Positions 1,255-56,600 of a stretch of 64,000 nt of DNA are shown here, piece after piece. The translations under genes and the position numbers were made by a program. The notes beneath the pieces are model-generated. The model ran no database searches, was not told where the DNA came from, and worked only from the letters and a program-made list of their open reading frames with translations. This DNA is from Mya arenaria. Its lineage: Eukaryota; Mollusca; Bivalvia; Myida; Myidae. Position 1 is the first letter of the stretch, and every line of letters begins with the position of its first letter. The stretch is taken from contig NC_069136.1 in NCBI RefSeq assembly GCF_026914265.1, forward strand, positions 52,197,381-52,261,380, read 5' to 3'.

Positions 1255-4200
1255 ACTCAGAGCAGTTAAGACCTAAAAACTAACTACTAAGAGCAATTAA
1301 GAGCTTCTTCAGGCTACTAAGAGCTACTTATAACTACTTAGAGCCACTGAGAACTACTAAGAACTACTAAGACCTACTAAGACCTGCTAAGAGCTACAAA
1401 GAACTATTACTAGAGTTACTATGACCTACTAATATTAACTTAGAGCCACTGAGAACTACTAAGAACTACTAAGACCTACTAAGACCTGCTAAGAGCTACT
1501 AAGAACTATTACTAGAGTTACTATGACCTACTAATATTAACTTAGAGCCACTGAGAACTACTAAGACCTGCTAATACCTGCTAAGACCTGCTAAGAGCTA
1601 CTAAGAACTATTACTAGAGTTACTATGACCTACTAATATTAACTTAGAGCCACTGAGAACTACTAAGAACTACTAAGACCTACTAAGACCTGCTAAGAGC
1701 TACAAAGAACTATTACTAGAGTTACTATGACCTACTAATATTAACTTAGAGCCACTGAGAACTACTAAGAACTACTAAGACCTGCTAATACCTGCTAAGA
1801 GCTACAAAGAACTATTACTAGAGTTACTATGACCTACTAATATTAACTTAGAGCCACTGAGAACTACTAAGAACTACTAAGACCTACTAAGACCTGCTAA
1901 GAGCTACTAAGAACTATTACTAGAGTTACTATGACCTACTAATATTAACTTAGAGCCACTGAGAACTACTAAGAACTACTAAGACCTGCTAAGACCTGCT
2001 AAGAGCTACTAAGAACTATTACTAAAGTTACTATGACCTACTAATATTAACTTAGAGCCACTGAGAACTACTAAGAACTACTAAGACCTACTAAGACCTG
2101 CTAAGAGCTACTAAGAACTATTACTAAAGTTACTATGACCTACTAATATTAACTTAGAGCCACTGAGAACTACTAAGAACTACTAAGACCTGCTAAGACC
2201 TGCTAAGAGCTACAAAGAACTATTACTAGAGTTACTATGACCTACTAATATTAACTTAGAGCCACTGAGAACTACTAAGAACTACTAAGACCTGCTAAGA
2301 CCTGCTAAGAGCTACTAAGAACTATTACTAGAGCTACTATGACCTACTAATATTAACTTAGAGCCACTGAGAACTACTTAGAACTACTAAGACCTACTAA
2401 GACCTGCTAAGAGCTACTAAGAACTATTACTAGAGCTACTATGACCTACTAATATTAACTTAGAGCCACTGAGAACTACTAAGAACTACTAAGACCTGCT
2501 AAGACCTGCTAAGAGCTACTAAGAACTATTACTAGAGTTACTATGACCTACTAATATTAACTTAGAGCCACTGAGAACTACTAAGAACTACTAAGACCTA
2601 CTAAGACCTGCTAAGAGCTACTAAGAACTATTACTAGAGTTACTATAACCTACTAATATTAACTTAGAGCCACTGAGAACTACTAAGAGCTACTAAGACC
2701 TGCTAAGACCTGCTAAGAGCTACTAAGAACTATTACTAGAGCTACTATGACCTACTAATATTAACTTAGAGCCACTGAGATCTACTAAGAACTACTAAGA
2801 CCTGCTAAGACCTGCTAAGAGCTACTAAGAACTATTACTAGAGTTACTATGACCTACTAATATTAACTTAGAGCCACTGAGAATTACTTAGAACTACTAA
2901 GACCTACTAAGACCTGCTAAGAGCTACAAAGAACTATTACTAGAGTTACTATAACCTACTAATATTAACTTAGAGCCACTGAGAACTACTAAGAACTACT
3001 AAGACCTACTAAGACCTGCTAAGAGCTACAAAGAACTATTACTAGAGTTACTATGACCTACTAATATTAACTTAGAGCCACTGAGAACTACTAAGAACTA
3101 CTAAGACCTACTAAGACCTGCTAAGAGCTACTAAGAACTATTACTAGAGCTACTATGACCTACTAATATTAACTTAGAGCCACTGAGAACTACTAAGAAC
3201 TACTAAGACCTGCTAAGACCTGCTAAGAGCTACTAAGAACTATTACTAGAGTTACTATGACCTACTAATATTAACTTAGAGCCACTGAGAATTACTTAGA
3301 ACTACTAAGACCTACTAAGACCTGCTAAGAGCTACAAAGAACTATTACTAGAGTTACTATAACCTACTAATATTAACTTAGAGCCACTGAGAACTACTAA
3401 GAACTACTAAGACCTACTAAGACCTGCTAAGAGCTACAAAGAACTATTACTAGAGTTACTATGACCTACTAATATTAACTTAGAGCCACTGAGAACTACT
3501 AAGAACTACTAAGACCTACTAAGACCTGCTAAGAGCTACAAAGAACTATTACTAGAGTTACTATGACCTACTAATATTAACTTAGAGCCACTGAGAACTA
3601 CTAAGAGCTACTAAGACCTGCTAAGACCTGCTAAGAGCTACTAAGAACTATTACTAGAGCTACTATGACCTACTAATATTAACTTAGAGCCACTGAGAAC
3701 TACTAAGAACTACTAAGACCTACTAAGACCTGCTAAGAGCTACAAAGAACTATTACTAGAGTTACTATGACCTACTAATATTAACTTAGAGCCACTGAGA
3801 ACTACTAAGAACTACTAAGACCTGCTAAGACCTGCTAAGAGCTACTAAGAACTATTACTAGAGTTACTATAACCTACTAATATTAACTTAGAGCCACTGA
3901 GAACTACTAAGAACTACTAAGACCTGCTAAGACCTGCTAAGAGCTACTAAGAACTATTACTAGAGCTACTATGACCTATTAATATTAACTTAGAGCTACT
4001 AAGAACTACTAAGAACTACTAAGACCTGCTAAGACCTGCTAAGAGCTACTTAGAACTATTACTAGAGCTACTATGACCTACTAATATTAACTTAGAGCCA
4101 CTGAGAACTACTAAGAACTACTAAGACCTACTAAGACCTGCCAAGAGCTACTAAGAACTATTACTAGAGTTACTATAACCTACTAATATTAACTTAGAGC

Positions 4201-5215
4201 CACTGAGAACTACTAAGAACTACTAAGACCTGCTAATACCTGCTAAGAGCTACAAAGAACTATTACTAGAGTTACTATGACCTATTAATATTAACTTAGA
4301 GCCACTGAGAACTACTAAGAACTACTAAGACCTGCTAATACCTGCTAAGAGCTACAAAGAACTATTACTAGAGTTACTATGACCTACTAATATTAACTTA
4401 GAGCCACTGAGAACTACTAAGAACTACTAAGACCTGCTAAGACCTGCTAAGAGCTACTAAGAACTATTACTAGAGTTACTATGACCTACTAATATTAACT
4501 TAGAGCCACTGAGAACTACTAAGAACTACTAAGACCTGCTAAGACCTGCTAAGAGCTACTAAGAACTATTACTAGAGTTACTATGACCTACTAATATTAA
4601 CTTAGAGCCACTGAGAACTACTAAGAACTACTAAGACCTGCTAATACCTGCTAAGAGCTACAAAGAACTATTACTAGAGTTACTATAACCTACTAATATT
4701 AACTTAGAGCCACTGAGAACTACTAAGAACTACTAAGACCTGCTAAGACCTGCTAAGAGCTACTAAGAACTATTACTAGAGTTACTATGACCTACTAATA
4801 TTAACTTAGAGCCACTGAGAACTACTAAGAACTACTAAGACCTGCTAAGAGCTACTAAGAACTATTACTAGAGCTACTATGACCTATTAATATTAACTTA
4901 GAGCCACTGAGAACTACTAAGAACTACTAAGACCTGCTAAGAGCTACTTAGAACTATTACTAGAGCTACTATGACCTACTAATATTAACTTAGAGCCACT
5001 GAGAACTACTAAGACCTGCTAAGAGCTACTAAGAACTATTACTAGAGCTACTATGACCTATTAATATTAACTTAGAGCTACTGAGAACTATCAAGAACTA
5101 AATAAAACACTCAGAACTACTAAGAACCAGGAAGAGCTACTTAGAAATTCGTAGAGCTACTAATGATGACAAAGAGCTGCTAAAAGCTACGAAGGACGAC
5201 TAAAAGAATTACTTC
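1255..5215 (+). repeat. 102-bp higher-order minisatellite, about 37 units
   Basis: The landmark TAGAGCCACTGAGAAC recurs at 1441, 1543, 1645, 1747, 1849 and 1951, exactly 102 bp apart, and the phase holds for most of the array. Each unit is itself a run of 10-bp words such as AAGAACTACT, AAGACCTGCT and AAGAGCTACT, so this is a two-level repeat. Edges are degenerate (1255-1340 and about 5090-5215) and a few units near the right end are shorter. Stop codons are frequent and no long ORF runs through it. A short degenerate patch of the same 10-bp words lies at the matching place behind copy 2 (21536-21640). Confidence 0.95.
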
Positions 5216-9298: not shown

Positions 9299-9635
9299 GG
9301 GTACGCGGTATACAGGGCGGTTTCAAAGGAGTACTCGGGTCTCAAGAGTATAATAGGCGGGTTTACGGAGTATCCGGGTCTCAAAGAGTATACAGGGAGG
9401 GTTTTAACGAAGTACTCGGGTCTCAAGAGTATGCAGGGCGGGTTTTAACGAAATACTCGGGTCTCAAGAGTATACAGGGAGGGTTTTAACGAAATACTCG
9501 GGTCTCAAGAGTATACAGGGAGGGTTTTAACGAAATACTCGGGTCTCAAGAGTATACAGGGAGGGTTTTAACGGTGTTCTTGGGTCCCAAGAGTATATAG
9601 GGTGGTTTTAACGGAATACTCGGTCTCAAGAGTAT
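9299..9635 (+). repeat. 42-bp satellite, left part (about 8 units)
   Basis: Units contain GAGTAT(A/C)AGGG, a T-rich GGTTTTAACG segment and GTACTCGGGTCTCAA. They are more divergent than most of the right-hand array, as expected at an array edge. The run is cut at 9635 by the element at 9636-12242 and resumes at 12243. Confidence 0.9.
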
Positions 9636-10296
9636 CACGGTGGAGAACCCACGTGACTTATTTGGTCAAGTGCACGGCAACAAATGTCAACAAGTCTCGA
9701 TTCAGGTAAAATTTTTAAAGATAACTTTCTTAATATTTGGAGAATTTTTGTGAAATAAAGACCATAAAACCCACATTTAAGAGCTCTATCTAATATCCTA
9801 AAGTTTTCCTGAAAATCTTGACAAACTGATTTCTCGGAGTTGAAATTTAATGCAAAGTACACGGCTTTTGACAAATATATCGCTTTACTTCGTGTATGCC
9901 GTAATTAATTCATACAATAGTTTTATTTTAAGCAAATTGTATGTATTTAATAGTTTTCAGCGTGTATTTTTTTAACTTCTTATAGTTATTTCAAGGGCGA
10001 AAATGAGCTAAAATCAAATTGATAAAGTACACGGACATTTTAGGATTGATAAAGTACACGGTCGTTTTTAACCTTCAGTATATATACGCATTATTTCACT
10101 GACGGGTGCTTAAATGAGTTATTATAAATATATATTTATATTCTTCAAATTCATTTTTGAACTTTGCTACCTGTTTGAAAAAGGCGCATTTTAATGGAGT
10201 GGCAATGTTAGACTGAACGCGTTTTAACAGTTAGACCGACGGAGTTGCCTAAATGATGGGCTCTTTTTCATAAATCATGTGTTATCGCAGTAAAAT

Positions 10297-10641
10297 TCAG
10301 TTCCGAATTTTAACAATATACTCGCAATTGATATATAAAGGGCTTGTAGTTTGCTGTAAAGGGTGTTCCACTCCTTTTTCGTATCGTATATATAATACGT
10401 GTTTGTATGCATTATACATGGTATACAGTAACACATAACCGCTTAATAACTCTTCATTTTGACAATTTTGAGAAAACAAAGTGTTCTTGTACTTTTTAAT
10501 GTCTTCGATTGCCAGCTGATTTGACTTATAGTTTTGTGATATTTGTTTCATTTCAGGATATGAAGATTCCGACTGGCATTTCAAAATAAAAAACAACAAC
10601 ATCTTATAACCATGATAGAAGGCATTCTGGTCTATTGCCAT
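10297..10641 (-). CDS. Unrecognised 114-aa ORF inside the TIR element
   Basis: The longest ORF in the element starts MAIDQNAFYHGYK and is Tyr/Lys/Asn-rich with no motif I can name. It has no Gly-rich or satellite bias, so it is not simply a repeat product. It could be a chance ORF in AT-rich DNA or the remains of a cargo gene. No splice or promoter evidence supports it. Confidence 0.2.
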   Translation of the reverse strand: MAIDQNAFYHGYKMLLFFILKCQSESSYPEMKQISQNYKSNQLAIEDIKKYKNTLFSQNCQNEELLSGYVLLYTMYNAYKHVLYIRYEKGVEHPLQQTTSPLYINCEYIVKIRN

Positions 10642-10821
10642 CGTTTTTGCGGGAAAGTTTTTACTTCACGCGTACAAGACACAGGTTATTTTTAAGATTC
10701 ATTTCTTTCGCAGAGTAATAAGAATATACTAACAGTTATACCTTTATTATGATTCCCCTCGTGTAGAGGTGAAGATTTGCCTTCGTCTGGCAACGTTTTT
10801 TAGGAGTTGCGTTATTCACAT

Positions 10822-11078
10822 AATAATGTGGTCCGTGTTTCAGTGGACAGGGTCGTTTAGTTTTATGATGCTGATTACACGATCAAACACTCATTGCGTA
10901 GTAATATGGTGTTTTTTATAAATTATATTCAATTACTGACATTGCCAGCCTTTCTCGTTTGTGAGAGGTTGCGTTTCTCACATAATATGTGGTCCGTGTT
11001 TCAGTGGACAGGGTCGTTTAGTTTTATGATGCTGATCACACAATCAAACACTCATTGCATGGCAGTAATATACTAGTA
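10822..11078 (+). repeat. Tandem duplication (period about 160 bp) inside the TIR element
   Basis: GTGGTCCGTGTTTCAGTGG and the following 70 bp occur at about 10827 and again at about 10989, with only a few differences between copies. Confidence 0.8.
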
Positions 11079-11166
11079 GTGTGTTTTTAAAAATTAAACT
11101 CAAGTACTACATTGCGAGCATTTCTCACTAACTTGTGACATTACATGTCTTTTTCATAGGTGCAGC

Positions 11167-11390
11167 AATCACGGCGAGATAAAGTTACACGTTTGCAAAA
11201 ATTGTGGCAAAGCATTTGCTCTTGCAAGACTTGAAGATACACGAAAGACGCGAAAGCGGCCAATTGAAGCTAAACTGTGATGTGTGTGGGTTCAAATAAG
11301 GTGACACGTCCAAGCTCAGCGAATAGATTTCTTCTAGACACCGGCAAATGACATGTCACAAAGTCTACAGTGTCGCTCAGCATTCATATT
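11167..11390 (+). pseudogene. Broken C2H2 zinc-finger fragment within the TIR element
   Basis: After a T-rich stretch ending CATAG, the sequence reads HVCKNCGKAFALA, the first half of a classical C2H2 finger. One frame over it continues LKIHERRESG and LNCDVCGF, the helix and start of a second finger. At least one frameshift and in-frame stops break it. It may be a host zinc-finger exon captured by the element, or part of an ancestral transposon protein. Confidence 0.5.
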
Positions 11391-11758
11391 AAAATCTGGA
11401 TTCCAGTATTTTGCCGAGTTTACCTAACGTGTTGATGAGTTTAACATTTTATTAAGATAAATAGCAAAACGTCGGTTACCAATTAGTGCTCTTTTAAAAC
11501 GTTCGTTTGTCTTACAGTACTGAAAAAAATTCTGTGTAAAATTAGTATGAAAACGGATTGAGCATAAAACATTTTCATAAGGTTTAGAGATGCATTGTTG
11601 TCATTTTCCCATTGATGGCCTATAAACTCTTAGCTGCATGTATCTTATATGATTCAGCAAGCTTTGAAACACAATTATGTTGTAATCACAGTTCAGCCTT
11701 CAGTCTAGAACATTCTAATGTTCAATGCTGAGCTCTAATCTCGATGTTCAAGTTTTAG

Positions 11759-11960
11759 TCCTAGCCTGTAAGTTGGTAATATAGTGCGCTCTCATTCCTC
11801 CTTGCTGTTCCTAGCCTGTAAGTTGGTAATATAGTGCGCTCTCATTCCTCCTTGCTGTTCCTAGCCTGTAAGTTGGTAATATAATGCGCTCTCATTCCTC
11901 CTTGCTGTTCCTAGCCTGTAAGTTGGTAACATAGTGCGCTCTCATTCCTCCTTGCTGTTC
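11759..11960 (+). repeat. Four 50-bp tandem repeats inside the TIR element
   Basis: CTAGCCTGTAAGTTGGTAA starts at 11761, 11811, 11861 and 11911. The copies are nearly identical, implying recent expansion. Confidence 0.95.
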
Positions 11961-12242
11961 CCATCTAACTTCGAGGCTCAGTCTTTACAATGAGTTCCTG
12001 TCTGTATTAATGCACTCGAGTTTCTTTTTTGCTTTAAGTCTTGCTCTGACCGGATCATCAAATAGGTGTTCACTGTTTAAATGAAACATAAACACAATAT
12101 ATTGTCGGATTCTATATAAGTAGGTCAGGCACTATATTTAAAAACTTATCTTTAAAAACCTTACCTGAATCGAGACTTGTTGACATTGTCGAGACTTGTT
12201 GCCGTGCACTTGATCAAATAAGTCAAGTGGTTCTCCACCGTG

Positions 12243-15200
12243 AGTATAAAGGGCGGGTTTATAACGGAGTACTCGGATCTCAAGAGTATAAAGGGCGGTT
12301 TATAACGTAGAATTCGGATCTCAAGAGTATAAAGGGCGGTTTATAACGTAGTACTCGGGTCTTTAAGAGTATAAAGGGCGGTTTATAACGTAGTACTCGG
12401 GTCTTTAAGAGTATAAAGGGCGGTTTATAACGTAGTACTCGGGTCTTTAAGAGTATAAAGGACGGTTTATAACGTAGTACTCGGGTCTTTAAGAGTATAA
12501 AGGGCGGTTTATAACGTAGTACTCGGGTCTTAAAGAGTATACAGGGCGGTTTTAACGGAGTACTCGGGTCTTAAAGAGTATACAGGGCGGTTTTAAAGGA
12601 GTACTCGGGTCTCAAAGAGTACACAGGGCGGATTTTAACGGAGTACTCGGGTCTTTAAGAGTATAAAGGACGGTTTATAACGTAGTACTCAGATCTCAAG
12701 AGTATAAAGGGCGGTTTATAACGTAGTACTCGGGTCTTCAAGAGTATAAAGGGCGGTTTATAACGTAGTACTCGGGTCTTAAAGAGTATAAAGGGCGGTT
12801 TATAACGTAGTACTCGGATCTCAAGAGTATAAAGGGCGGTTTATAACGTAGTACTCGGGTCTTAAAGAGTATAAAGGGCGGTTTATAACGTGGTATTCGG
12901 ATCTCAAGAGTATAAAGGGCGGTTTATAACGGAGTACTCGGGTCTTAAAGAGTATACAGGGCGGTTTATAACGTAGTACTCGGGTCTTAAAGAGTATACA
13001 GGGCGGTTTATAACGTAGTACTCGGGTCTTAAAGAGTATAAAGGGCGGTTTATAACGTAGTACTCGGGTCTTAAAGAGTATACAGGGCGGTTTATAACGT
13101 AGTACTCGGATCTCAAGAGTATAAAGGGCGGTTTATAACGTAGTACTCGGGTCTTAAAGAGTATAAAGGGCGGTTTATAACGTGGTATTCGGATCTCAAG
13201 AGTATAAAGGGCGGTTTATAACGTAGTACTCGGGTCTTAAAGAGTATACAGGGCGGTTTATAACGTAGTACTCGGGTCTTAAAGAGTATACAGGGCGGTT
13301 TATAACGTAGTACTCGGGTCTTAAAGAGTATAAAGGGCGGTTTATAACGGAGTACTCGGGTCTTAAAGAGTATAAAGGGCGGTTTATAACGGAGTACTCG
13401 GATCTCAAGAGTATAAAGGGCGGTTTATAACGTAGTACTCGGGTCTTCAAGAGTATAAAGGTCTCAAAGAGTATAAAGGGCGGTTTATAACGGAGTACTC
13501 GGGTCTCAAAGAGTATAAAGGGCGGTTTATAACGTAGTACTCGGGTCTCAAAGAGTATAAAGGGCGGTTTATAACGGAGTACTCGGGTCTTAAAGAGTAT
13601 AAAGGGCGGTTTATAACGTAGTACTCGGGTCTTAAAGAGTATAAAGGGCGGTTTATAACGTAGTAGTCGGGTCTTCAAGAGTATAAAGGGCGGTTTATAA
13701 CGGAGTACTCGGGTCTTCAAGAGTATAAAGGGCGGTTTATAACGGAGTAATCGGGTCTTCAAGAGTATAAAGGGCGGTTTATAACGGAGTACTCGGATCT
13801 CAAGAGTATAAAGGGCGGTTTATAACAGAGTACTCGGGTCTTAAAGAGTATAAGGGCGGTTTATAACGGAGTACTCGAGTCTTAAAGAGTATAAGGGCGG
13901 TTTATAACGTAGTACTCGGGTCTTAAAGATTATAAAGGGCGGTTTATAACGTAGTACTCGGGTCTTAAAGAGTATAAAGGGCGGTTTATAACGTAGTACT
14001 CGTCTCTCAAAGAGTATAAAGGGCGGTTTATAACGGAGTACTCGGATCTCAAAGAGTATAAAGGGCGGTTTATAACGTAGTACTCGGATCTCAAAGAGTA
14101 TACAGGGTGGTTTATAACGGAGTACTCGGATCTCAAAGAGTATAAAGGGCGGTTTATAACGTAGTACTCGGGTCTCAAAGAGTATACAGGGCGGATTATA
14201 ACGGAGTACTCGGGTCTTAAAGAGTATAAAGGGCGGTTTATAATTAGTACTCGGGTCTTAAAGAGTATAAGGGGCGGTTTATAACGTAGTACTCGGGTCT
14301 TAAACAGTATAAAGGGCGGTTTATAACGTAGTACTCGGGTCTTAAAGAGTATAAAGGGCGGTTTATAACGTAGTACTCGGGTTTTAAAGAGTATACAGGG
14401 CGGTTTTAACGGAGTACTCGGGTCTTAAAGAGTATACAGGGCGGTTTTAAAGGAGTACTCGGGTCTCAAAGAGTACACAGGGCGGTTTTTAACGGAGTAC
14501 TCGGGTCTTTAAGAGTATAAAGGACGGTTTATAACGTAGTACTCAGATCTCAAGAGTATAAAGGGCGGTTTATAACGTAGAACTCGGGTCTTCAAGAGTA
14601 TAAAGGGCGGTTTATAACGTAGTACTCGTCTCTCAAAGAGTATAAAGGGCGGTTTATAACGTGGTATTCGGATCTCAAGAGTATAAAGGGCGGTTTATAA
14701 CGTAGTACTCGGGTCTTAAAGAGTATACAGGGCGGTTTATAACGTAGTACTCGGGTCTTAAAGAGTATACAGGGCGGTTTATAACGGAGTACTCGGGTCT
14801 TAAAGAGTATACAGGGCGGTTTATAACGGAGTACTCGGGTCTTAAAGAGTATAAAGGGCGGTTTATAACGGAGTACTCGGGTCTTAAAGAGTATAAAGGG
14901 CGGTTTATAACGGAGTACTCGGATCTCAAGAGTATAAAGGGCGGTTTATAACGGAGTACTCGGATCTCAAGAGTATAAAGGGCGGTTTATAACGTAGTAC
15001 TCGGGTCTCAAAGAGTATAAAGGGCGGTTTATAACGGAGTACTCGGGTCTCAAAGAGTATAAAGGGCGGTTTATAACGTAGTACTCGGGTCTTAAAGAGT
15101 ATAAAGGGCGGTTTATAACGTAGTACTCGGATCTCAAAGAGTATAAAGGGCGGTTTATAACGTAGTACTCGGGCCTCAAAGAGTATAAAGGGCGGTTTAT

Positions 15201-18200
15201 AACGTAGTACTCGGGTCTTCAAGAGTATAAAGGGCGGTTTATAACGTAGTACTCGGGTCTTAAAGAGTATAAAGGGCGGTTTATAACGTAGTACTCGGAT
15301 CTCAAGAGTATAAAGGGTGGTTTATAACGTAGTACTCGGGTCTTAAAGAGTATAAAGGGCGGTTTATAACGTAGTACTCGGGTCTTAAAGAGTATAAAGG
15401 GCGGTTTATAACGTAGTACTCGGGTCTTAAAGAGTATACAGGGCGGTTTTAACGGAGTACTCGGGTCTTAAAGAGTATACAGGGCGGTTTTAAAGGAGTA
15501 CTCGGGTCTCAAAGAGTACACAGGGCGGTTTTTAACGGAGTACTCGGGTCTTTAAGAGTATAAAGGACGGTTTATAACGTAGTACTCGGGTCTTAAAGAG
15601 TATACAGGGCGGTTTATAACGGAGTACTCGGGTCTTAAAGAGTATAAAGGGCGGTTTATAACGGAGTACTCGGGTCTTAAAGAGTATAAAGGGCGGTTTA
15701 TAACGGAGTACTCAGATCTCAAGAGTATAAAGGGCGGTTTATAACGGAGTACTCGGATCTCAAGAGTATAAAGGGCGGTTTATAACGTAGTACTCGGGTC
15801 TTCAAGAGTATAAAGGGCGTTTTATAACGTAGTACTCGGGTCTCAAAGAGTATAAAGGGTGGTTTATAACGGAGTACTCGGGTCTCAAAGAGTATAAAGG
15901 GCGGTTTATAACGTAGTACTCGGGTCTTAAAGAGTATACAGGGCGGTTTTAACGGAGTACTCGGGTCTTAAAGAGTATACAGGGCGGTTTTAAAGGAGTA
16001 CTCGGGTCTCAAAGAGTACACAGGGCGGTTTTTAACGGAGTACTCGGATCTCAAGAGTATAAAGGGCGGTTTATAACGTAGTACTCGGGTCTTCAAGAGT
16101 ATAAAGGGCGGTTTATAACGTAGTACTCGGGTCTCAAAGAGTATAAAGGGCGGTTTATAACGGAGTACTCGGGTCTCAAAGAGTATAAAGGGCGGTTTAT
16201 AACGTAGTACTCGGGTCTTAAAGAGTATAAAGGGCGGTTTATAACGGAGTACTCGGATCTCAAAGAGTATAAAGGGCGGTTTATAACGTAGTACTCGGGC
16301 CTCAAAGAGTATAAAGGGCGGTTTATAACGTAGTACTCGGGTCTTCAAGAGTATAAAGGGCGGTTTATAACGTAGTACTCGGGTCTTAAAGAGTATAAAG
16401 GGCGGTTTATAACGTAGTACTCGGATCTCAAGAGTATAAAGGGCGGTTTATAACGTAGTACTCGGGTCTTAAAGAGTATAAAGGGCGGTTTATAACGTGG
16501 TATTCGGATCTCAAGAGTATAAAGGGGCGGTTTATAACGTAGTACTCGGGTCTTAAAGAGTATACAGGGCGGTTTATAACGTAGTACTCGGGTCTTAAAG
16601 AGTATACAGGGCGGTTTATAACGGAGTACTCGGGTCTTAAAGAGTATAAAGGGCGGTTTATAACGGAGTACTCGGGTCTTAAAGAGTATAAAGGGCGGTT
16701 TATAACGGAGTACTCGGATCTCAAGAGTATAAAGGGCGGTTTATAACGGAGTACTCGGATCTCAAGAGTATAAAGGGCGGTTTATAACGTAGTACTCGGG
16801 TCTTCAAGAGTATAAAGGGCGGTTTATAACGTAGTACTCGGGTCTCAAAGAGTATAAAGGGCGGTTTATAACGGAGTACTCGGGTCTCAAAGAGTATAAA
16901 GGGCGGTTTATAACGTAGTACTCGGGTCTCAAAGAGTATAAAGGGCGGTTTATAACGTAGTACTCGGGTCTTAAAGAGTATAAAGGGCGGTTTATAACGT
17001 AGTACTCGGGTCTTAAACAGTATAAAGGGCGGTTTATAACGTAGTAGTCGGGTCTTCAAGAGTATAAAGGGCGGTTTATAACGGAGTACTCGGGTCTTCA
17101 AGAGTATAAAGGGCGGTTTATAACGGAGTACTCGGATCTCAAGAGTATAAAGGGCGGTTTATAACGGAGTACTCGGGTCTTAAAGAGTATAAGGGCGGTT
17201 TATAACGGAGTACTCGGGTCTTTAAGAGTATAAGGGCGGTTTATAACGTAGTACTCGGGTCTTAAAGAGTATAAAGGGCGGTTTATAACGTAGTACTCGG
17301 GTCTTAAAGAGTATAAAGGGCGGTTTATAACGTAGTACTCGGGTCTTAAAGAGTATAAAGGGCGGTTTATAACGGAGTACTCGTCTCTCAAAGAGTATAA
17401 AGGGCGGTTTATAACGGAGTACTCGGATCTCAAAGAGTATAAAGGGCGGTTTATAACGTAGTACTCGGGTCTCAAAGAGTATACAGGGCGGTTTATAACG
17501 GAGTACTCGGATCTCAAAGAGTATAAAGGGCGGTTTATAACGTAGTACTCGGGTCTCAAAGAGTATACAGGGCGGTTTATAACGGAGTACTCGGGTCTTA
17601 AAGAGTATAAAGGGCGGTTTATAACTTAGTACTCGGGTCTTAAAGAGTATAAGGGGCGGTTTATAACGTAGTACTCGGGTCTTAAACAGTATAAAGGGCG
17701 GTTTATAACGGAGTACTCGGGTCTTAAAGAGTATACAGGGCGGTTTATAACGGAGTACTCGGGTCTTAAAGAGTATAAAGGGCGGTTTATAACGGAGTAC
17801 TCGGATCTTAAAGAGTATAAAGGGCGGTTTATAACGGAGTACTCGGATCTCAAAGAGTATAAAGGGCGGTTTATAACTGAGTACTCGGTACTTTAAGAGT
17901 ATAAAGTGCGGTTTATAACGGAGTACTCGGATCTCAAAGAGTATAAAGGGCGGTTTATAACGTAGTACTCGGGTCTTAAAGAGTATAAAGGGCGGTTTAT
18001 AACGTAGTACTCGGGTCTTAAAGAGTATAAAGGGCGGGTTTTAACGGAGTACTCGGGTCTCAAAGAGTACACAGGGCGGGTTTTAACGGAGTACTCGGGT
18101 CTCAAAAGTATAAAGGGCGGGTTTTATCGGAGTACTCGGGTCTCAAAGAGTACACAAGGCGGGTTTTAACGGAGTACTCGGGTCTCAAAAGTATAAAGGG

Positions 18201-18600
18201 CGGTTTATAACGTAGTACTCGGGTCTTAAAGAGTATAAAGGGCGGGTTTTAACGGAGTACTCGGGTCTCAAAGAGTACACAGGGCGGGTTTTAACGGAGT
18301 ACTCGGGTCTCAAAAGTATAAAGGGCGGGTTTTATCGGAGTACTCGGGTCTCAAAGAGTACACAAGGCGGGTTTTAACGGAGTACTCGGGTCTCAAAAGT
18401 ATAAAGGGCGGGTTTTAAAGGAGTACTCGGGTCTCAAAGAGTACACAGGGCGGGTTTTAACGGAGTACTCGGGTCTCAAAAAGTACACAAGGCGGGTTTT
18501 AACGGAATACTCGGGTCTCAAAGAGTATACAGGGTGGTTTTAACGGAGTATTCAGGACGCAAAAGTATACAGCGTGGGTTTCAGCGGAGTACTAAAGAGA
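12243..18600 (+). repeat. 42-bp satellite, main array (about 150 units)
   Basis: The unit is 42 bp: GAGTATAAAGGGCGG, then TTTATAACGTAGTACTCGG, then GTCTTAAA, with variants (CGGAGT for CGTAGT, TACAGGG for TAAAGGG, ATCTCAA for GTCTTAAA). Because 42 is divisible by 3, two minus-strand frames stay open over long runs (repeating RPEYYVINRPLYS or VLRYKPPFIL). This follows from the unit length and is not evidence of protein. Rare variants (TGGTATTCGG near 12890, 13185, 14670 and 16497; GTAGTAGTCGG near 13655 and 17044; GAGTACACAGGGCGG near 12615, 14473, 15513 and 16018) recur at kilobase spacing, pointing to higher-order block duplications. Confidence 0.97.
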
Positions 18601-23067: not shown

Positions 23068-23361
23068 GTAACCACGCCCTACCCCCCAGGTCCGGGGGGT
23101 ATACCGGGGACAACCGGGGAAATTGGCCGTGTTTTAACCTTTCAGGTAGCCCCGCAGTGCCGGGTGAATGCGGTGGTTTTGTCTTCCCGCAAAATACAGC
23201 GGGGAATGGGCCTTACCTAGGGTCCCTGGGGTGCAGGGGCATTTGGCGGGGATTTTACCATCAGTTCGTCCCCGAAGGGCGGGGATTTTACCCGGGGTTG
23301 GCTGGACCGAAAGTCAAAGTCCCCGCTATTCCCCGGACCTGGGGGGGGGGGGCGTGGTTAC
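23068..23361. mobile_element. GC-rich 294-bp foldback/MITE-like element
   Basis: Begins GTAACCACGCCC and ends with its complement GGGCGTGGTTAC. The inverted repeat continues inward past a C/G tract into CCAGGTCCGGGG and CCCCGGACCTGG. AATT flanks both sides (23064-23067 and 23362-23365), giving a 4-bp target duplication. Its GC content is far above the surroundings. An ORF (22980-23378) happens to run through, giving a Gly/Pro-rich peptide, but it starts outside the element and is not believed to be a gene. No transposase is present. Confidence 0.75.
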
Positions 23362-30911: not shown

Positions 30912-31028
30912 ACCACAGGCATCTGAATCATTGTTTGTCACTAAAATGTTGTTTAAAACCATTTTGGGTACATACAATGAGATAAACAACACATCTGAAG
31001 ATATTTAGTGTCTTTGATATACAAAAAA
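30912..31028 (+). repeat. Left arm of a 117-bp inverted repeat
   Basis: Starts ACCACAGGCATCTGAATCA and ends ATATACAAAAAA. It is the reverse complement of 31583-31699, apparently without mismatches, across a 554-bp spacer. Such identity implies a recent origin or ongoing gene conversion. Confidence 0.9.
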
Positions 31029-31582
31029 GAAACAAGGTATGTAACTCAAACTTACCCGATTTCACGGTAGAGTCCAGTTTTATGCAAATTTCTCAACCAA
31101 CATAAAAAACAATCCATTTTTAAATAAGTGACATGGAAAGACGAGTCAATTACCTTTAAAATGGTGTGCGATATGTTGGTGTAACTATATTGTCTTTAGA
31201 CAAACAAGCATAATTCAATGTCCAATTCTCATGTTTTTCTTTAGTCGGAAAGAGTACAGCAAATTCAGATCGTCAATTTTCCCCGTGTAAACAGTACTAA
31301 AAACAGACCTATTGAAGTTATTTTATGCTTTAGTGTACAGATAAATTAATTCCATTCCATAATATCACGAAAACCCTAACATCACAATGTTAGAAACAAC
31401 TGTATCAGTCTTTAAACTAAATCCTCTTTAAATTTCGTAGGCAGCTGGCCATTTTACCCACAAGCGCCCAGATGATGTCATTGACATGTACATTTAACAT
31501 CTTTGTACCGGCTTGAATGTGAGCCACACAAGCTTGGATGGGTCAAATACTCTTCTTTGGAGGTTGATCAGAAACATCTGAG

Positions 31583-31699
31583 TTTTTTGTATATCAAAGA
31601 CACTAAATATCTTCAGATGTGTTGTTTATCTCATTGTATGTACCCAAAATGGTTTTAAACAACATTTTAGTGACAAACAATGATTCAGATGCCTGTGGT
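31583..31699 (-). repeat. Right arm of the 117-bp inverted repeat
   Basis: Reads TTTTTTGTATATCAAAGACA onward to GATGCCTGTGGT, the reverse complement of 30912-31028. Coding-like sequence follows directly at 31700-31850. Confidence 0.9.
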
Positions 31700-40786: not shown

Positions 40787-41514
40787 TTGCTAGTAGGCGG
40801 CATGAAGGCCAAACAAATGTTGCTAGCCACGCCGCTGTTACGATGGTACATCAACCACGGTCTCGTAGTGAGCAAAATATATCAGGTGGTCGAGTTTCAG
40901 GAGCAACGTTGTTTTAAAGAGTTTGAGCGCGAGGTGAGTGAGGCACGACGACAGGGGGACGCGGATCCAGACACGGCCATTATCGCCGAGACCAGTAAGT
41001 GATAGGTAACTCCAGCTACGGCTCGCTAATCATGGATAAAACCAAGCATAGCGGCGTCCAATACGTTCAAGGCGAAAACGAAACATGTCTGCAAGTCAAC
41101 GACCCTCGCTTCAGCAAACTAGAGTGTTTAGACCAAGAAGAACAGTACTATGAAATTGAGATGTCCAAACGAAAAATAAAGCTGGACTTGCCGATTCAGT
41201 TGGGATATTTTATTCTCCAGTACGCTAAGCTTCGCATGCTGGAGTTTTATTACGATTTTATGGACGTCTACGTCGACCGCCGGGACTTCGAATACTGCGA
41301 GATGGACACGGACAGCGCCTACATGGCCATATCCGGAAAAACGTTGGAAGAGGTGATCAAACCCGACATGCTGGAAAAGTATAAATTCGGATTGTGGTAC
41401 ACGGTACGTGTCAGATACCGACATGAGATAAAAAGAAATTGGAGACCAAAAGCGCGGTCATTCGTCGATTGGTGTCACCGAGAGACAGCAAAGACGGTTA
41501 TTAAACAAACATAG
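40787..41514 (+). other. Type B DNA polymerase pieces in the Polinton fossil
   Basis: Contains GNSSYGSLIMDKTKH, the conserved palm-region block, and YCEMDTDSAYMA, the DTDS metal-binding motif C of family B polymerases. The spacing matches Polinton-type protein-primed polymerases. It is partial: the exonuclease part is not seen. Confidence 0.75.
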
Positions 41515-41565
41515 CGATATATTGCCGTTAGTGTTAAAACCGGTGGTGAGCATGTTAAAGAAAGC

Positions 41566-41997
41566 ATGACCAGCGAAAAGTATATCTACGTTCAAAGCGA
41601 CGACAGCGACACCTTTTTCTCGGAAAACTCAACAGCCGATTTTAAAATTCAGTTAAAGGTACCTTTGTGTTTGGAGGGTACCTGGAAAATAGCCCTTGTC
41701 GATTTCAACGCAACAGAAAAAAGCAAATCGAAAGCAGACACCGGACTTTACGTGTATTCGGATATTTGCGGGGAAAGCTTGGTGAAGGGCGAAGAAAGGC
41801 CTCTGTTAAAGCCTCTGGAAAAAACCAAAAAGAGCCAATGGGATTACGTGTTAGATAGTCCTTACTACGTACCAGTGAGACGAAAAGAAATTAGAGAATT
41901 CAGGATCTATATAAGGCAAGACGATGGGACGGATTCGCCAGATTTAATAAAACCAGTGCGGTTAACGCTTCACTTAAAACGCTATCCTTTTTACTGA
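41566..41997 (+). other. Penton-like minor capsid ORF (143 aa) in the Polinton fossil
   Basis: The N-terminal pattern YVQSDDSDTFFSENSTADF, followed by LEGTWKIALVDF, is the usual opening of short single-jelly-roll minor capsid (penton) proteins in Polintons/adintoviruses. Its position just before the basic ORF and protease fits. The assignment is from pattern memory and should be treated as likely, not certain. Confidence 0.55.
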
Positions 41998-42004
41998 AAA
42001 AAAA

Positions 42005-42403
42005 ATGAAATTATATGTGCCGAATCAGCAAAAGTGGGTGGACTTTTTTTATCGCGTTAGCAGCGGTAAAACGTCGTTAAATCAAACGGGAGGTGGACGG
42101 CATTTGTCGGTGATACCCGTGGAATACGCGACAGTAAATGACGACAAGACCTACCCTTTAAATGCGGTTTTACTGGCTGAGCAAACCATGGCGAGAGCCA
42201 AATCTGAGCTCGAAAGAAATGTTATAAAACAAGGCGCTGTCGTGGAAAACCTTCAGTCTTCCGCTAGCAGTTCACGGCGCGGGATCAAACGCAAGCGAAG
42301 ACCGGCTAATTTACTGTTTAAACGACGAAAGAAGGACGTCAAGGAGCGTAGTAAAGATAAATCAGGAAACAGAAAGAAGGACATATTCGAAATAAGAAAA
42401 TAA
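42005..42403 (+). other. Lys/Arg-rich ORF (132 aa) in the Polinton fossil
   Basis: Basic C-terminal half (GIKRKRRPANLLFKRRKKD). Similar small basic proteins, likely virion core or DNA-binding, lie beside capsid genes in this group. Function inferred only. Confidence 0.45.
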
Positions 42404-53638: not shown

Positions 53639-56600
53639 TCACTGGGTCAGGTATTTCACATGGTGCTTGATGTGCTCCTCCACAAATGAGGCAATGAAGA
53701 AGTAACTGTGGTCGTAGCCCTGAAAAAACAGAATTGGGACATGTAGTTGCATCCCAGTATAATATTTTCAAGATGCACTGTCACAGATTGACAGTTTTTG
53801 CATTGTTTTTAATATTTTGTCTCAGAATCAGTTGATTTTGGCCTTAATGCCTTCAATTAGGCATGTAAGATAACTCACTATGGAACAGAACTCAAGGAAA
53901 ACTGCCGAAAACTCGAAGTTCTTAAAGCCCTAGTAACGTTTTCAGTCATAAAACATCAATTATCAAATGAAAATTATGAAAAATTGAGGTCTTATATCAC
54001 TGGTTTACTGGCGTTTACACAATAATTGGTTCATTCTTAGACAAAATATTTAAAAAAGGTTGTAAAACATTGAATCTGTGAGAGTGCAGCTTTACAGGAC
54101 CATTGGGTGTAGTAGTATATATGTCTGTTCACCCAAGAGGCTGAGGGTTCAAACCCCACCAGTGTTGCTTTCTCACGGCCTCTCAAAATGGACACCATTA
54201 ACAGTTTCTTCCCAAGAAACAGACAGGAGAGTGATTCAATAAGCTTATAATAAAATTTCGTCAAAATGGAAATAAAAGAAAGAAGTATTAATTTAAGTAA
54301 TGCAATTTCAATGGTCTCAAATATAACACATTAATGGAATTCTAGAAAAACATGTTAAAATAATGTTATAGATGATTCAACCTGTTTTTGTTTTATTTCA
54401 TTCATGAACATAAGCAAATACACTTGCCACCTTTAAACAGTTACATACGGCAAACACTTGTCAGTCCTTCTCTGTTAACTCAGATAACTTAAGAGCAATT
54501 TCCAAAAACCAAGCCTATTGTCATTGCTTCATGTCCATCAAGTTTCAAGTGAAATCATTTAACAGATTTTAAGTCTGACACATGTATTTTAAAAATTATT
54601 TAACATGACAACATGACAGTGATACTTCCACTTTTTTACACATCATAAAACAAAAACATAAAAAAAACACCTTCAACCAAAATGTTTACCTCCTGTATTC
54701 TCAACGTAATGGGGACATTATTCTCAGCACAGGCAGCAGACAGGTTGTCAGGCAGTAGTTGGCCCTCAGTGTAGAAGTTGTCTGCCTGTCCCTGGTCTAC
54801 AAGGATATTGAGTTCTGGCCCTTTGTACTGCTTAGCTAACTCAGTAGCATCATATTCCTGAAAGACAAAACAGTGGTGAATTTGTCTGTTGAAAGATTTG
54901 GTCCTCAATGTTGAAGTTATATCCCCTAGATAACAAGGATATTGAGTTCTGGCCCTTTGTACTGCTTGGCTAGCTAAGTAGCATCATATTCCTGAAAGAC
55001 AATACAATGGTGAATTTGTCTGTTGAAAGAGTCAGTCCTCCATGTCAAAGTTATCTGCCTTGATCTTGTTAACGAGGATATTGAGTTCTGGTTTCTTGTA
55101 CTGCTTAGCTACCTCAGTAGCATCCTACTCCTGAAAGACAATACCCAGTCAGCCTATATTTGTCTGTTAAAAGAGCTGGTTCTCATTGTTGAAGTTATCT
55201 ACCTTGACCCATCCTGAAAAAAAATATGGAGTTCTGTCCCCTTGCACTGCTTAGCTTGTGTTGTAGCATCATATTTTTGAAAAGCAATACACAGTTAACC
55301 TAAATTTGTTTGTCAGGGTTGCCAGCACTATGGTGAAATAAAATTCCCTGACTTTTCCCTGACTTTTCACTGACCAATTCATGTTTTTCACTGACCAAAA
55401 TCGTCAAACACATAAACGGCCTCCTGACCTCCCCTATAGCCGTCCAATCCTCCCATTATCTTTTTGCATGTAAACTTGTATTTATTTTCCAAAATATAAA
55501 ACATTTACATTGTACATCAAAGTAATGATTCAAACATAGTGTTCTACTATTCTTAACTATTTCTATTCAAACACAGTGTGACTGTTGGTCAGTGAAACAT
55601 GTGAAACATTAGCATGAAAACAAGAACATAGGGCTCATTTTGGCATATCATGAAATAATCACTATAAAATTAAAGACTTTGAATGAGTATGGTAAGTAAG
55701 TGTGAAAAAAAGTTAGTGTGAAAAACATAGCATTGCATAATTTAACCAGTTTCCATCATGTTTGCAAGACAAATCCTCTTGTACAATTTCTTAGTGTCAA
55801 AGCAAAAAGCAAAGCAGGTTATATGCCAATATGGTAGTTTGGTATACATGTATACTGACTAGATTTTGTTAGTAATTAAAAGCCCTTCTAGTTCTACCCA
55901 ACACTTAAACTCTGTGTCCGTAAGCCAGTTATTATTGAAAGATGTCTGTTTTGAACTCATATTTGTTAATTTGTCATGCTAACAAGGAAGAGCCTGAAAC
56001 AGAGTAATTTAATTATATTATCTGCCATCAAATCCCTTTATTAGATGATATAAAGAAACCGCAACACCTGAAACAAGGATAATAATCTATAGATTAGAAT
56101 ATAATGTCAGGTAAATTCTCTTTTCTGGTGTTATATTCCTACAATACAACAGAAATTACGTATTAGTCAGCTCTGGAGGCAAGGGTTGCAAAGCCTTTCA
56201 GTCTTTAGGCTGAATGATGTTCTAAGGTAAATAATGGGTATTATAATCACTAAGTTAACATATAATGCTTCTTAATATCACAGTTTACTGTTATTTGAAT
56301 TTAATGCTTAACTGTGAGAGTGATAAAGTCAAATATTAAATGCCTAAAGACTGCCATAGCCAAGAAAGACCTTCAATGCGTATATTTTTCGACCTTTGAA
56401 ATAATTTTTCCCTGACTTTTCCCTGACTTTTCAGGATTTTCATTTTTCACTGACCAAATTTCAAAATTCCCTGACAATTCCCTGACCTTGAAAAAATACC
56501 CAATTTCCCTGACTTTTCAAGTCCGCTGGCAACCCTGTTTGTGAAAAGAGCTGGGCCTCAAAGCAGAAGTTCCCTTGCCCTGGTCCACAATACTACAGAG

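Follow-up and report, generated by a model that had tools for sequence, protein, structure and literature searches.

A DNA transposon with CAC ends, possibly of Transib type, within a 42-bp satellite array of Mya arenaria

An element that splits a satellite array

The window, by which we mean the whole stretch of 64,000 nucleotides of Mya arenaria DNA that was analysed, holds an element of 2607 bp at positions 9636-12242, where it splits a satellite of 41/42-bp units. These coordinates and the CACGGTG ends, both proposed in a first-pass annotation, were borne out. The element and its immediate setting comprise the following features:

9308-9635, no strand assigned: left-hand satellite array of about eight 41-bp units (Tandem Repeats Finder)
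9631-9635, plus strand: left target duplication AGTAT (in an alternative 3-bp reading, GTA at 9632-9634)
9636-12242, plus strand: DNA transposon of 2607 bp, almost certainly nonautonomous, with terminal inverted repeats and a flanking duplication
9636-9736, plus strand: left terminal inverted repeat, starting CACGGTG, as aligned to the right end
12134-12242, minus strand: right terminal inverted repeat, ending CACCGTG, as aligned to the left end
12243-12247, plus strand: right target duplication AGTAT (in the alternative 3-bp reading, GTA at 12244-12246)
12243-18550, no strand assigned: satellite array to the right of the element, 41-42-bp units (Tandem Repeats Finder)

The left end starts with CACGGTGGAGAACC at 9636, and the right end closes with the reverse complement of this sequence at 12242. 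Both terminal repeats have the start CACGGTGGAGAA in common, and the heptamer CACGGTG at either end is one base away from the RSS heptamer (6 of 7 matching). The terminal repeats had been put at about 100 bp; they span 101 bases on the left and 109 on the right, share 84.5% identity across 110 aligned columns that include one 1-bp and one 9-bp gap, and reach a local alignment score of 147, as against 29 at most in controls (300 random pairs of 110 bp taken from 19-63 kb of the window).

Two minor observations concern the same region. Each terminal repeat contains, as seen by eye, an inner inverted word pair (9650-9672 and 12207-12229), which reads CACTTGA/TCAAGTG in the right repeat and differs by one base in the left. 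The satellite units are unlike across the element, being of a 41-bp AGGGAGGG type on the left and of a 41-42-bp AAAGGGCGG type on the right, which might reflect separate homogenisation of either side or a position of the element at a variant boundary.

Target site and length of the duplication

AGTAT flanks the element on either side. With the flanks joined and one AGTAT removed, division of the array at each AGAGTAY yielded 150 intervals; 42 bp is the commonest length (97/150), and 38 intervals measure 41 bp. Single-unit length (39-43 bp) is found in 138 of the 150, and 133 of these 138 contain AGTAT exactly once. Because the delimiter itself includes AGTAT when Y is T, as in 140 of the 150 intervals, what the figure chiefly conveys is the rarity of a second copy; outside the anchor word AGTAT occurs in only 8 of the 150. 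Removal of the element together with one AGTAT (5 bp) leaves a junction unit of 42 bp beside neighbouring units of 39 and 41 bp. A collapse by 6 or 7 bases would give lengths of 41 and 40, which are also plausible, and would delete bases that are present after AGTAT in the right-hand units.

The presence of a target duplication is well supported, and its length less so, since the boundary is not unique. When both ends are shifted one base outward, the added T and A are complementary, the ends become TCACGGTG, the duplication becomes GTA (3 bp) and the empty site is identical. This T and A stand at the inner edges of the two AGTAT copies, and since they pair, the 3-bp reading fits the same letters. 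The first-pass annotation had taken the site as exact proof of 5 bp; the restored 42-bp unit stands, whereas "proof" is too strong a word.

If the 3-bp reading were right, the element would have to be placed in a superfamily with 3-bp duplications, which we consider rather unlikely. In its favour, the added bases pair perfectly and GTA then stands on either side. However, it calls for a target that was A-GTA-T by luck (1 in 16), whereas for a 5-bp duplication it is enough that the outer target bases pair with each other (1 in 4); at equal base frequencies this would favour 5 bp over 3 bp by about 4 to 1. It also sets the first base at T, while CACTA-type elements begin at C. An example of a superfamily with 3-bp duplications is Academ, as given in a portion of PMC5199201.

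An origin without any transposon, through chance insertion or rearrangement within the satellite, is scarcely credible. Satellite arrays rearrange, and an exact 5-base overlap between two registers might occur in about 1 in 42 cases, but the 100-bp inverted repeats exactly at both junctions and the restored satellite register argue against such an origin. We are nearly certain that the element is a transposon, and specifically a nonautonomous DNA transposon of the cut-and-paste kind.

Interior of the element

Between and within the terminal repeats lie the following features:

9668-9677, plus strand: AAGTRCACGG in the left terminal repeat
9855-9864, plus strand: subterminal AAGTRCACGG, first word
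10025-10034, plus strand: subterminal AAGTRCACGG, second word
10052-10061, plus strand: subterminal AAGTRCACGG, third word
10794-11126, plus strand: direct duplication of about 160-170 bp inside the element, with 84% identity between its two copies (self-BLAST)
11158-11386, plus strand: broken C2H2 zinc-finger remnant with a frame change and stops
11759-11961, plus strand: 50-bp tandem repeat, 4.1 copies, 98% matches (Tandem Repeats Finder)
12202-12211, minus strand: AAGTRCACGG in the right terminal repeat

The three subterminal words AAAGTACACGG that had been noted previously stand at element positions 219, 389 and 416, and the wider word AAGTRCACGG occurs additionally once per terminal repeat. 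Its shorter form GTRCACGG has six occurrences in the window, of which five lie in the element (one per terminal repeat and three at 9857-10061) and the sixth at 41397. Among 2000 dinucleotide-model sequences of element length the mean was 0.058 and the maximum 2, a comparison in which the two terminal-repeat copies are not mutually independent. All three inner copies are left-sided. We regard the AAGTRCACGG words as putative binding sites.

The broken C2H2 zinc finger and the four 50-bp repeats of the earlier description were both recovered, the latter as the 4.1 copies listed above. Taken separately, the zinc-finger frames give weak Pfam matches (best E 0.0079 and 0.011) that fall below the curated cut-offs; joined across the frame change they match zf-H2C2_2 at E 7.1e-6, likewise below the curated cut-off. 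Compared with solved C2H2 proteins, the joined piece matched 133 sequences at E <=10, and the top match among the 60 listed of these 133 was ZNF568, with a whole-sequence E of 7.3e-17 and a best single-stretch i-E of 9.3e-5, this target being a multi-finger array. Just upstream of the remnant a splice-acceptor-like stretch can be seen by eye. The remnant is possibly a captured host exon, and more generally may represent a decayed piece of a captured or accessory gene.

A Pfam search of the element in six frames, with stops as X and E up to 10, detected no transposase. It returned only two matches (E 8.4 and 0.091), both below cut-off, and RAG1, RAG2L, the Transib core and hAT transposase were not among them, in agreement with the earlier view that the interior lacks a core recombinase.

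Two further coding candidates were set aside. The longest open frame (122 aa, minus strand, 10297-10665) has a length that 8.6% of 500 dinucleotide-model sequences attain, and its sole Pfam match, at E 0.099, lies below cut-off. A second zinc finger at about 10612-10719 matched no Pfam family in either of two forms.

Affinity of the element

The mobilising enzyme may quite conceivably have been of Transib type (the RAG1-related superfamily), an assignment that we hold tentatively as the likeliest single reading, the closest known counterparts being moth Hztransib and the mosquito nonautonomous Transibs N1-N3. The element shares with Transib its CAC ends, a heptamer-like start, long terminal repeats and, in the simplest reading, a 5-bp duplication. 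It differs in that it has neither a detected transposase core nor a nonamer-like block, in that its duplication is AT-rich as opposed to GC-biased or CNNNG, and in that it holds zinc-finger debris and internal tandem repeats. The ends of the active moth Hztransib likewise begin with CACGGTGGA, which is the exact start of the element. Literature searches on CACGGTG and CACGGTGGA returned no paper on a CACGGTG Transib and no match to the Hztransib ends.

Several published traits bear on this assignment. Passages on target sites give 5 bp as the duplication of Transib and RAG-like elements (PMC7204232, PMC4411706, PMC1852546). AGTAT has the form ANNNT and is AT-rich (1/5 G/C), being neither CNNNG, the form that Table 2 of PMC7764229 gives for Transib miniature elements of a moth, nor GC-rich, the bias that a passage of PMC8289069 describes for Transib duplications. 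A nonamer-like block at 12-bp or 20-23-bp spacing is described for Transib in a figure legend of PMC8355894, and the nonamer is slight or absent in Hztransib according to a section of PMC8289069. At these Transib spacings (spacers of 11-13 and 20-24) the RSS nonamer is absent from the element, the best score per end being 4/9, which 64% of 5000 random element windows equalled; neither the nonamer nor the GC-rich or CNNNG duplication, which is a preference, is strictly required of a Transib, and a single copy is considered here. As for the heptamer, a portion of PMC9723617 reports that CACNGTG heptamers, CACGGTG included, show good mammalian RAG usage in some spacer contexts, and that CACGGTGGA falls in a bottom-quartile spacer group of that usage. 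The Transib reading is weakened by the rarity of the superfamily in a mollusc survey, where Transib accounts for 1 of 14,275 DDE/D elements (PMC10294476).

The first-pass annotation had described the element as Transib/RAG-like. Its nonautonomous nature, its CAC ends and 5 bp as the simplest reading of the duplication stand; against the assignment are the lack of a RAG1 or Transib core among the six-frame Pfam matches, the missing nonamer, the AT-rich duplication and a chance-level match to the RAG-like consensus after CAC. This last point makes a true RAG1L-RAG2L (RAG-like) derivative very improbable. Such a derivative would account for the CAC start and the 5-bp duplication, which protostome RAG-like elements share, and nonautonomous derivatives are known, as from the oyster P. 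imbricata in the relevant passage of PMC7204232. The element shows no RAG1L/RAG2L Pfam match, as would be expected for a nonautonomous copy in which these genes are missing. Its end sequence after CAC, however, departs from the protostome RAG-like consensus CACTWMCAAACKTYKBB: the two ends match it at 6/17 and 7/17 positions overall and at 3/14 and 4/14 after CAC, as against 5.75 expected by chance, and the conserved AAA at positions 8-10 is absent from both.

A larger place must be left for a nonautonomous transposon of another superfamily with 5-bp duplications (e.g. hAT5) or of a superfamily as yet undescribed, perhaps within the CACTA-Mirage-Chapaev-Transib clade, which we consider a substantial possibility, if a somewhat doubtful one. 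The likeness to hAT5 consists of the 5-bp duplication and the terminal inverted repeats. On the other hand, the hAT end consensus YARNG has a purine as its third base, whereas the ends of the element start CACGG, with C at that position, and there is no hAT transposase match among the six-frame Pfam results. Within the CACTA-Mirage-Chapaev-Transib clade, moreover, only Transib and RAG-like elements are known to combine CAC ends with 5 bp, which argues against another member of this clade. A section of PMC12730594 gives 5 bp for hAT5 duplications and, for the clade, mostly 5'-CA..TG-3' ends with duplications of 2-5 bp, a description that the element fits.

The window itself also speaks to this alternative. 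It was scanned for exact inverted 12-mers within 8 kb of each other that are flanked by a direct repeat of at least 4 bp; of the pairs listed, which include several others and many TA-repeat pairs, the element alone combines a 5-bp flank with CAC ends. In the control for the inverted 12-mers, 10 random dinucleotide-model windows held 0-2 pairs of any kind each. One of the other pairs, at 55314-56537, has the ends CAGGGTTGCCAG and a 5-bp flank match, TTTGT on both sides, with no alternative boundary; we take these CAGGG ends to be hAT-like. Another belongs to a perfect inverted repeat at 30912-31699, whose arms measure 117 bp each and enclose 554 bp. Read as 30914-31697 it starts with CACAGGCATCTG, has CAC ends and shows an 8-bp flank match, GTCAAAAC, which becomes 6 or 4 bp if each end is lengthened by one or two bases. 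With CAGGG and 5 bp in one case and CAC and 8 bp in the other, neither hallmark alone is Transib-specific in this window, and the CAC ends beside an 8-bp flank at 30.9 kb have led us to lower the Transib reading and to raise that of another superfamily.

If the Transib-type reading is followed, a transposase encoded elsewhere would have bound the terminal repeats, and perhaps also the repeated AAGTRCACGG words, and would have cut at the CAC ends. The element would then have been inserted at a 5-bp staggered cut within one 42-bp satellite unit, and repair of this cut would have duplicated AGTAT. The fuller version, in which a Transib-type element carries a captured piece of a host zinc-finger gene and is aided by the subterminal AAGTRCACGG binding words, strikes us as improbable.

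The element is likely a further member of an already known kind of transposon. If matching ends were shown to enclose a Transib core, a family of cargo-carrying RAG-related transposons would be gained, together with a clean example of an empty site. At present its interest is mainly that of a tandem array which records the target duplication of an insertion, and naming a superfamily from a single copy calls for caution.

Search for relatives

The element is known from a single copy in the 64-kb window. With the element masked, its two ends had no matches in the window beyond exact ones of 10-12 bases, and the best match of the whole element to the masked window was 21 bases long (E 0.14). Two long terminal patterns had no matches in viral contigs, one long terminal pattern had none in genome contigs, and the satellite pattern matched no viral contig. 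A short end pattern of 17 letters, 16 of them fixed bases, matched 16 viral contigs. A BLAST search of the whole element against a separate set of 16 loci (E <=1) yielded seven short stretches in seven loci, the best with 22 of 23 letters (locus L013); none had a second end listed, and all were treated as chance. Relatives were thus not found in these collections, which were not built for animal genomes.

Other features of the window

Searches of the window for tRNAs and, at gathering thresholds, for Rfam families were both negative. A 102-bp satellite occupies 1315-5063 (36.9 copies, 95% matches, Tandem Repeats Finder), and its unit appears different from the 42-bp unit. A segment of 294 bp at 23068-23361 has terminal inverted repeats beginning GTAACCACGCCC, with the palindromic AATT on either side. 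Open frames at 40999-42403, which gave no significant Pfam match, are reminiscent of Polinton-like elements.
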